DNA from: Bordetella parapertussis
GTDB taxonomy: Bacteria > Pseudomonadota > Gammaproteobacteria > Burkholderiales > JACQAP01
NCBI GenBank assembly: GCA_945900965.1
Contig: CAMDKM010000010.1
Span: 1 to 64,000 of the forward strand
Direction: 5' to 3'
Length of the DNA stretch: 64,000 nucleotides
Shown here: piece after piece, positions 1-1,660 of the stretch
How positions within the stretch are numbered: the stretch's first letter is position 1
How the letters are laid out: every line of letters begins with the position of its first letter
Notes under the pieces: generated by a model
The model's input: only the letters and a program-made list of their open reading frames with translations
The model's database searches: none
Told to the model about the DNA's origin: nothing
Made by a program: the position numbers and the translations under genes

Positions 1-1326
1 GTCGGGGAGGGGGATGCTTTGCCGACAATCTTGTGAGACAGAAAATAACCGCTGGAAAGTGCCCTTTAGATCGTCAAACGCGCCATTTCTAACTTCATCT
101 GGAACACTCCCACGGGGAAAAACATTACGGTGAAATATGCAGGCTAGCATCTTCTCCCACACAGTCGGTACGCCGCTTTTTTCGGCCATCTCGCGATAGT
201 GGCGGGCGCGAATTTCCCTCAGCCTGTAATGCATGTTCTTGGCTCGGATGCCCATCGCCAACCGCGCTTTTTGCGGCGAAAGTGAATTGGTGCCGTGCCC
301 GATGACGGGCCAGGCCGAGAGCACGTCGTAGAGCGGCGTCAGGCGATAACTGTCACCCGCATTGAGAAATACGGAAAAGTTTTTCGCATGTCCATCTGTC
401 GCGGCAAGCAGCCAGAAGGCCAGTTGCACCAAAAGAAACTGCTCGCGGTCCGCGTTGGGTGAAGCGCTGCCGGAGAGCAGTTTTAATGCGTCTGCTATTC
501 CGGGCCCACCGTCGGATTCGTATTTTCTGTCAGGCGGTACCCCGAGCGCCTGGCAAAAATCTTCTTGAGGCAGCCTCGCGATCCATCGCTCGTCCATCCA
601 CTGGCGATCGAAGCGTTCGACGACGAGCACCTTCTGATCGCCGAAAATTGCGATTTCGGTTATCGCCACTGAAAAGCCTAGTTCGCGAAGAATTTGCGCG
701 CATAGCCATTCATTCTCGACCGACTCTGACATGTCGAGCCGCAGCCCTCCACCGACCACACCGAGCGGCAACTTCAAAATGTGCGTCGTCGGGGTTGCGC
801 CCCGAGGGCGGAACCACTTGCCGCGTTGGCGCAAGAGGGCCGTCTTTTCCTGGGCACCCGCTATCGAAATGCGAAACGCATCGGAGTCTTCGTTGGTGCC
901 AAGCAATGGATCGGCGGTTACGCCGCGAAGAAGGCGCTCGACTTCGGCATCGTTAACTGCGTGCCCGTCAATCCGGTCGAATCCTTCTGGAGTCATTCCC
1001 GACGGCAGCAGTTGTACGGCACCTACGCAATCGCGCCCGATGGCAGTCAGCAGTTCAAATGCTTCGGTGCCGCGCGTGCGAAAGCGCGCACTGAGCCGAC
1101 GGCGAATATTGTCGTTGTCGGGCAGCAGATTCTCGAAATAGTTTGATACGGGCGCTCCGGTGATTTCGCGAGACGGGCCGATGGGGAGTGACAGCGAAAG
1201 CGATCGCCGCCGCGGAGAATTCAGCCAGGACTCCTCGTAGGTCACGCGATGTCCACTGGTGCGGGTTCGCGACCACACCCCGACCAGCTCGCCATTCATC
1301 CAGACATTGAGCTCGGTGGTCACCAT
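1..1326 (-). CDS. hipA: HipA serine/threonine kinase toxin (3' end beyond window)
   Basis: HipA-type toxin kinase; in E. coli HipA phosphorylates glutamyl-tRNA synthetase, stops translation and causes persistence. I translated the minus strand from the ATG at 1326 and it stays open for 442 codons to the window edge, so only the extreme C-terminus can be missing (E. coli HipA is 440 aa). Visible motifs: SIAGAQEKTALL near residue 154 (region of the autophosphorylated serine), LPQEDFCQA near 252, the catalytic loop DGHAKNFS at 311-318 and the metal-binding YDVLSAWP near 333-340. These match the E. coli family closely, so the kinase looks intact. The start overlaps the hipB stop (ATGGTGA), which implies translational coupling. 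The target in this organism is inferred only from the family. Confidence 0.93.
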   Translation of the reverse strand, partial: MVTTELNVWMNGELVGVWSRTRTSGHRVTYEESWLNSPRRRSLSLSLPIGPSREITGAPVSNYFENLLPDNDNIRRRLSARFRTRGTEAFELLTAIGRDCVGAVQLLPSGMTPEGFDRIDGHAVNDAEVERLLRGVTADPLLGTNEDSDAFRISIAGAQEKTALLRQRGKWFRPRGATPTTHILKLPLGVVGGGLRLDMSESVENEWLCAQILRELGFSVAITEIAIFGDQKVLVVERFDRQWMDERWIARLPQEDFCQALGVPPDRKYESDGGPGIADALKLLSGSASPNADREQFLLVQLAFWLLAATDGHAKNFSVFLNAGDSYRLTPLYDVLSAWPVIGHGTNSLSPQKARLAMGIRAKNMHYRLREIRARHYREMAEKSGVPTVWEKMLACIFHRNVFPRGSVPDEVRNGAFDDLKGTFQRLFSVSQDCRQSIPLPD

Positions 1327-1583
1327 GAGCCTTTTGGCATCGTGTCCGGCTCTGCCTCCTCGTCAGGCCGCGAATCATGCAGCACGATGTGTGCGTCCAA
1401 GGCGGTCAGCAGCCTGAACAGTTGCGCGACGCTGACAACCGAGGGATCCCGTTCGATTTCAGCAATGCGAACCTGTCCAATGCCAACTAACTTACCGAGC
1501 TGCGTCTGGGTCAGGCCCTTGGTCTTGCGCAACGCGCGCAACTGTTGCCTGATCTGGTCGGGGAAACGAATGGGATAGTTCAT
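1320..1583 (-). CDS. hipB: HipB-type XRE antitoxin and autorepressor
   Basis: An 87-residue DNA-binding antitoxin encoded upstream of and overlapping hipA. Residues about 10-65 form a Cro/C1-type helix-turn-helix (LTQTQLGKLVGIGQVRIAEI covers the scaffold and recognition helices). The acidic C-terminal tail ends in tryptophan, as does E. coli HipB. Family role: the dimer binds operators, neutralises HipA and represses the operon. The predicted operators lie directly upstream and support autoregulation. No Shine-Dalgarno sequence is visible before the ATG, and the predicted transcription start falls on or next to the start codon. Confidence 0.9.
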   Translation of the reverse strand: MNYPIRFPDQIRQQLRALRKTKGLTQTQLGKLVGIGQVRIAEIERDPSVVSVAQLFRLLTALDAHIVLHDSRPDEEAEPDTMPKGSW

Positions 1584-1589
1584 TCGCGC

Positions 1590-1660
1590 AGACTATCGCT
1601 CACAGGCGATATTGTCAATTTATCGCTTCATAGCGATATGAATATCGTCCTTATGCGATG
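1590..1660 (-). promoter_or_regulatory. hipBA promoter with two perfect and one degenerate HipB-like operators
   Basis: Two 18-bp inverted repeats TATCGC-N6-GCGATA lie at 1594-1611 and 1621-1638, with a degenerate third (TATCGT-N6-GCGATG) at 1643-1660. The published E. coli HipB operator is TATCC-N8-GGATA, so spacing is identical and one base per half-site differs. On the minus strand a perfect TTGACA -35 box at 1613-1618 and a weak TAGTCT -10 at 1590-1595 (17-bp spacer) place operator 1 exactly between the two boxes. Bound repressor would therefore block RNA polymerase. Inference from sequence only. Confidence 0.75.

Follow-up and report, generated by a model that had tools for sequence, protein, structure and literature searches.

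Upstream of a hipB antitoxin gene in a 64,000-nucleotide stretch of Bordetella parapertussis DNA (hereafter the window) lie inverted repeats that have the format of HipB operators but half-sites unlike those of Escherichia coli. Do these repeats serve the neighboring repressor and, if so, why does their sequence differ? HipB is a regulator of persistence for which protein-DNA structures have been solved, Schumacher 2015 and Wen 2014 reportedly being the main papers; to our knowledge, few HipB operators have been published. The best explanation, to which we assign a probability of roughly 0.8, is that the repeats mark the promoter through which a type II hipBA operon controls its own expression, that its operator is unlike E. 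coli TATCC because recognition helix α3 of HipB differs, and that the pair represents one state of a recognition code running through the HipB family.

The hipBA locus and its operator array

In the window, hipB lies directly upstream of hipA and the two genes overlap by 4 nt (Table 1). The encoded HipB contains an HTH_3 domain (E = 1.1e-10) and has HipB 2wiu_B as its best PDB match (E = 2.7e-7); it scores below the curated NCBIfam cut-offs for HipB, with 47.8 bits for TIGR03070 (cut-off 71.65) and 41.9 for NF007271 (cut-off 79). The HipA sequence carries the kinase domains Couple_hipA (E = 8.4e-23) and HipA_C (E = 1.9e-50). Window HipB ends in KGSW, and a terminal tryptophan is found in 11 of the 12 rows of our alignment; in PMC3376134, this residue is called universally conserved.

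Table 1. Features of the window's hipBA locus, in window coordinates
Feature	Position	Strand	Description and basis
Dispersed insertion-sequence-like repeat, end	1..147	-	At the contig end; cuts hipA
hipA kinase toxin gene	148..1326	-	Codons 1 to ~393 only
hipB antitoxin/repressor gene	1320..1583	-	87 aa; HTH_3; C-terminal Trp
HipB recognition helix α3	1452..1478	-	Residues 36-44, GQVRIAEIE; alignment with E. coli HipB (K38-Q39) and covariation scan
-10 hexamer TAGTCT	1590..1595	-	Weak, 3/6, 17 bp from -35; alignment of relatives
Operator O1	1594..1611	-	TATCGC-N6-GCGATA, perfect dyad; center 1602.5
-35 hexamer TTGACA	1613..1618	-	Perfect; sequence and alignment of relatives
Operator O2	1621..1638	-	TATCGC-N6-GCGATA, perfect dyad; center 1629.5, 27 bp from O1
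Operator O3	1643..1660	-	Degenerate, 1/10 5-mer-arm bases off; center 1651.5, 22 bp from O2

Three 18-bp dyads, O1 to O3, precede hipB, each with 5-mer arms flanking eight bases, which from the sequence is the HipB operator format. The original prediction of two perfect TATCG-N8-CGATA repeats and a degenerate third, with center-to-center distances of 27 and 22 bp, is borne out at all three sites. The perfect arms of O1 and O2 extend to six bases (TATCGC), one more than the 5-mer. O1 and O2 are the only exact copies of TATCG-N8-CGATA in the window. The 3.88-Mb genome holds seven such copies, these two included, and a single occurrence of the reversed control pattern; perfect six-base arms occur at a single further site in the genome (at locus L001), and we claim no regulon. 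The palindromic-array score of the window promoter is 21.3, against a best of 4.9 among its own 30 shuffles and of 16.3 over the shuffles of all promoters (6540 in total).

Across ten relatives, the arms are better conserved than the spacers, with mean values of 9.5 versus 6.2 of 10 for O1, 8.75 versus 6.67 for O2 and 7.67 versus 5.83 for O3; in O1 the arms are nearly invariant while the inner six bases drift. The presence of O1 to O3 in relatives makes it almost certain that they serve HipB as autoregulatory operators, a reading to which their position and family-wide recurrence also point.

The array overlaps a promoter. TTGACA is kept in eight of ten distinct promoters and TANNNT stands at equal distance in all ten, the window being included in both counts (the alignment has 12 rows with two duplicate pairs). 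A generic six-base consensus promoter scan of this region of the window returned no promoter, because the -10 hexamer matches at only three of six positions. O1 had been predicted to lie exactly within the -35/-10 spacer; it does occupy 16 of the 17 spacer bases (1596-1611), but it also takes in the -10 hexamer's first two bases, and "exactly" is therefore slightly off. We propose that HipB would bind O1, O2 and O3 as a dimer, by itself or together with HipA, with one recognition helix entering each TATCGC arm, that occupancy of O1 would block RNA polymerase between the -35 and -10 elements, and that O2 and O3 would contribute cooperative repression.

The claim of E. coli-like geometry holds for the N8 spacing of half-sites, which is common to both systems, but not for the array: the window has three sites at 27 and 22 bp, whereas the four TATCCN8GGATA sites of E. 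coli K-12 are separated by 28, 39 and 28 bp. In several of the window's near relatives a fourth site is located 27 bp upstream of O3, and their 27/22/27 layout resembles the two-pair arrangement of E. coli. The window has no fourth site, and its upstream homology to the relatives stops at about position 1650.

Farther upstream of hipBA in the window, on the same strand, is a tRNA-Phe gene (2067-2142), perhaps an integration site; one of the ten near-relative loci scanned, L011, also has a tRNA-Phe gene there (66-141). A short tandem GATGCAG repeat (1735-1767) lies between hipBA and the tRNA gene. In the family, the hipB of locus L008 (1743-1950) seems to be frameshifted past residue 47, giving 69 aa without the C-terminal tryptophan, while its hipA reads through; this could be either a true lesion or a sequencing error.

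Covariation of helix α3 with the half-site

HipA searches yielded 225 loci, including the window and E. coli K-12, with a HipB upstream in 219 and a sufficiently long promoter in 218; the 202 promoters whose HipA is at least 42% identical form the survey set. The possibility, raised in the original prediction, that homologous loci would lack the repeats is answered by a palindromic array above the 99% null in 176 of these promoters, compared with 9 of 202 hipB and 2 of 202 hipA coding stretches given to the same caller. The nulls are mononucleotide shuffles, backed by these coding controls, and motif calls scoring 5.74 or less (26 of 202) were dropped. The 176 loci give 400 adjacent spacings, 307 of exactly 27 bp and 41 of 28 bp.

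Two groups of promoters depart from this format. In those of L072, L074, L077, L093, L096, L195, L205, L206 and L217, the sites are one bp shorter, with N7 between TATCG-like arms, the arrays are mostly at 26 bp rather than 27, and the helices are mostly QNRLSE or QSRIS, so dimer geometry varies within the family. The even-gap caller miscalls this class, and it miscalls L026 in register; both were counted as misses. The promoters of L103-L105, L107, L108, L110, L111, L113 and L115 have ATCCTC or TTTCCC sites spaced by about 50 bp, and the HipA proteins of such loci are more distant (30-35% identity).

For comparison with the protein, a cut at 75% HipB identity left 113 representatives of the 176 loci. 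We number the helix G36 Q37 V38 R39 I40 A41 E42 I43 E44 and the half-site T1 A2 T3 C4 G5 C6; our pair-based statistics are descriptive, as they treat non-independent pairs as points. The change in the recognition helix that the altered operator had led the original prediction to expect is present: the alignment places G-Q-V-R-I-A-E of the window against K-Q-A-T-I-S-N of E. coli HipB, among which lie the residues we take to be its DNA contacts. Comparing recognition helices with operators, as had been proposed, reveals that the two vary together on the scale of the family, with exceptions.

Residue 38 and base 3 form the strongest residue-base pair (z = 16.9; 113 representatives): C3 occurs in 21/21 representatives with Q38 and 6/85 without it (p = 4e-17), and D38 likewise accompanies C3 (1/1 here and 5/5 in the blind set described below). 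R38 occurs with G3 in 5/8, but with T3 in both of the blind-set HipBs that carry it. A2 accompanies Q37 in 99 of 106. R39 with D or E at 42 goes with CG at bases 4-5 (TATCG) in 9/12, against 0/7 for R/K42; R39 with R or K at 42, K38 excluded, goes with GC (TATGC) in 6/7, against 0/12 for D/E42; and R39 with Q42 has TA in 2/2. E. coli-like K36-Q-x-T-x-S helices have TATCC in 8/14 and TATCG in none of the 14, TATCC is found in none of the 12 R39-D/E42 representatives, and R36-Q-A-T-x-S helices have TATACG in 7/7. Exceptions within the window's own class are L024 (TACAAG), L015 (TATCTG) and three A38-E42 relatives with TATTGG.

Pairing of arginine with G, of a carboxylate with C and of glutamine with A is familiar chemistry. 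We propose that the kept Q37 (Q39 in E. coli) would pair with the kept A of TAT, and that G36, V38, R39, A41 and E42 in place of K, A, T, S and N would lead to CGC instead of CC. The half-site and these α3 residues would then have changed jointly across the family, giving a readable recognition code. Since the operator covaries with the DNA-reading helix of the antitoxin, knowing either often allows the other to be predicted. Orthogonality of window HipB to E. coli HipB is a good prediction, though only suggested, by the mutual exclusion of TATCG and TATCC between the two classes.

Rules fixed beforehand were then applied to a blind set from two other orders. Of 77 loci fetched, 76 had a HipB; removal of 51 with 75% or greater identity to an earlier or kept sequence left 25, of which 24 were scored. 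The rules were right in 20 of 26 cases (permutation p = 0.00035), with 2/2 for R1, 13/18 for R2 and 5/6 for R6. All five R2 misses are D38 with C3, and D38 should have been excluded from R2 because the first set already contained this pairing. R39-D/E42 HipBs, the window's own class, were absent from the blind set, so its result concerns the other classes.

Alternative readings of the array

Inverted repeats do arise by chance: with up to two mismatches, TATCG-N8-CGATA matches the window 31 times against 20 expected. That O1 to O3 are bound by another regulator, or have no regulatory role, is nevertheless very improbable, given that the half-site tracks the helix of the HipB encoded next door and that 27-bp arrays stand upstream of hipB in most of the 202 loci but not in the coding controls. 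Another alternative is that O1 to O3 are HipB operators whose match to the helix reflects shared descent, without residue-to-base readout. Operator states also track phylogeny, agreement climbs with overall identity, residues 54, 61 and 12 outside α3 correlate with the operator as well, and a nearest-neighbor train/test split (77 and 81 loci) gave the helix no advantage (22/81 right from α3, 25/81 from the rest of HipB). Distance-controlled designs, some of them chosen after this result was known, point the other way. The covariation scan peaks at α3, where the partial correlation of operator agreement with helix identity is 0.21-0.30 for six-residue windows starting at residues 35-40 and at most 0.19 elsewhere. 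At fixed identity elsewhere, agreement still rises with helix identity, from 0.77 to 2.58 of 3 bases at 35-45% and from 0.68 to 2.61 at 45-60%, whereas among pairs sharing few helix residues it does not increase with overall identity up to 60%. In leave-one-out prediction from neighbors less than 40% identical elsewhere, all three bases were right in 29 of 113 cases using α3, 13 using the rest of HipB and a mean of 9.2 (maximum 20) using six random residues. Among independent nearest pairs, the operator is shared by 18 of 25 with the same helix and 16 of 56 with different helices (p = 0.0005; p = 0.018 for pairs at least 55% identical elsewhere), and in our judgment caller error seems to account for some of the seven same-helix exceptions (L168 and L072/L206, for instance). 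Descent without readout is thus an unlikely account, if a better one than a foreign regulator.

The fate of hipA, which the original prediction did not mention, bears on a further reading, compatible with O1 to O3 being operators: that operators and hipB persist as a repressor-only relic and the array has ceased to serve a functional toxin-antitoxin module. Homology to HipA relatives stops at about codon 393 (window 141-147) and the sequence then diverges, so that hipA fails as a complete gene of a hipBA operon. The break coincides with the start of a dispersed repeat: the last 147 bp occur at ten places in the genome, this one included, nine of which lie no more than 40 bp from a contig end, and at the copies unrelated flanks join one common start with nearly identical bases. 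The repeat resembles the end of an insertion sequence; a plasmid comparison of it gave no match. However, the fused hipA frame is open as far as the contig end, and a C-terminally altered HipA could therefore be produced; with O1 and O2 still perfect, the interruption may have happened recently. With hipB, O1 and O2 intact, repression could therefore persist while the toxin is altered. We regard the relic as a serious possibility, falling somewhat short of even odds.

Relation to known systems

E. coli K-12 hipBA is like the window in having the repressor gene first and hipA directly after it, several 18-bp N8 dyads upstream of hipB and a kept glutamine in α3; the window differs in its TATCG half-site (versus TATCC), in helix residues 36, 38, 39, 41 and 42, and in its interrupted hipA. 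The locus would then be an ordinary type II autoregulatory array with shifted specificity. Operators of the phage 434 repressor and Cro-type HTH proteins have ACAA half-sites, and Gln28-Gln29 of the 434 repressor read ACA; similarly, ACA is found in 20 of the 21 representatives whose HipB has Q37-Q38. Unlike in phage 434, the HipB sites are more widely spaced (ACAA-N8-TTGT versus N6) and belong to toxin-antitoxin autoregulation, in 27-bp arrays. The E. coli hipBA operator consensus is given as TATCCN8GGATA in PMC3376134.

Legionella HipBST, as described in PMC10653801, shares with the window a HipB-family repressor and three operators over the promoter with a sequence unlike that of E. coli hipBA, but has 53-bp gaps, six-base repeats and a tripartite kinase; the ~50-bp ATCCTC/TTTCCC arrays of our most distant loci are closer to it. 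PMC7029023 describes, for Caulobacter hipBA1 and hipBA2, promoter inverted-repeat series whose intervals are presented as compatible with E. coli HipA/HipB/promoter complexes; the likeness to the window lies in this serial arrangement. Further literature comprises PMC8262856, PMC6581861 and PMC9438503. Correlation studies of this kind are reported for the GntR, IclR and MerR families, and our search of open-licence PMC papers found no such comparison or covariation study for HipB.

On balance, we think it reasonably probable, with less confidence than we place in the operators themselves, that residues 36, 38, 39, 41 and 42 of α3 set bases 3-6 of an array of mostly 27-bp pitch, that half-sites and cross-regulation may be predicted from the protein, and that the window represents a GQVRIAE/TATCGC state insulated from TATCC systems. 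Should the half-site prove readable from the helix, cross-talk among the several hipBA modules of a cell would become predictable, and the family would offer a natural set of mutually insulated repressor-operator pairs.
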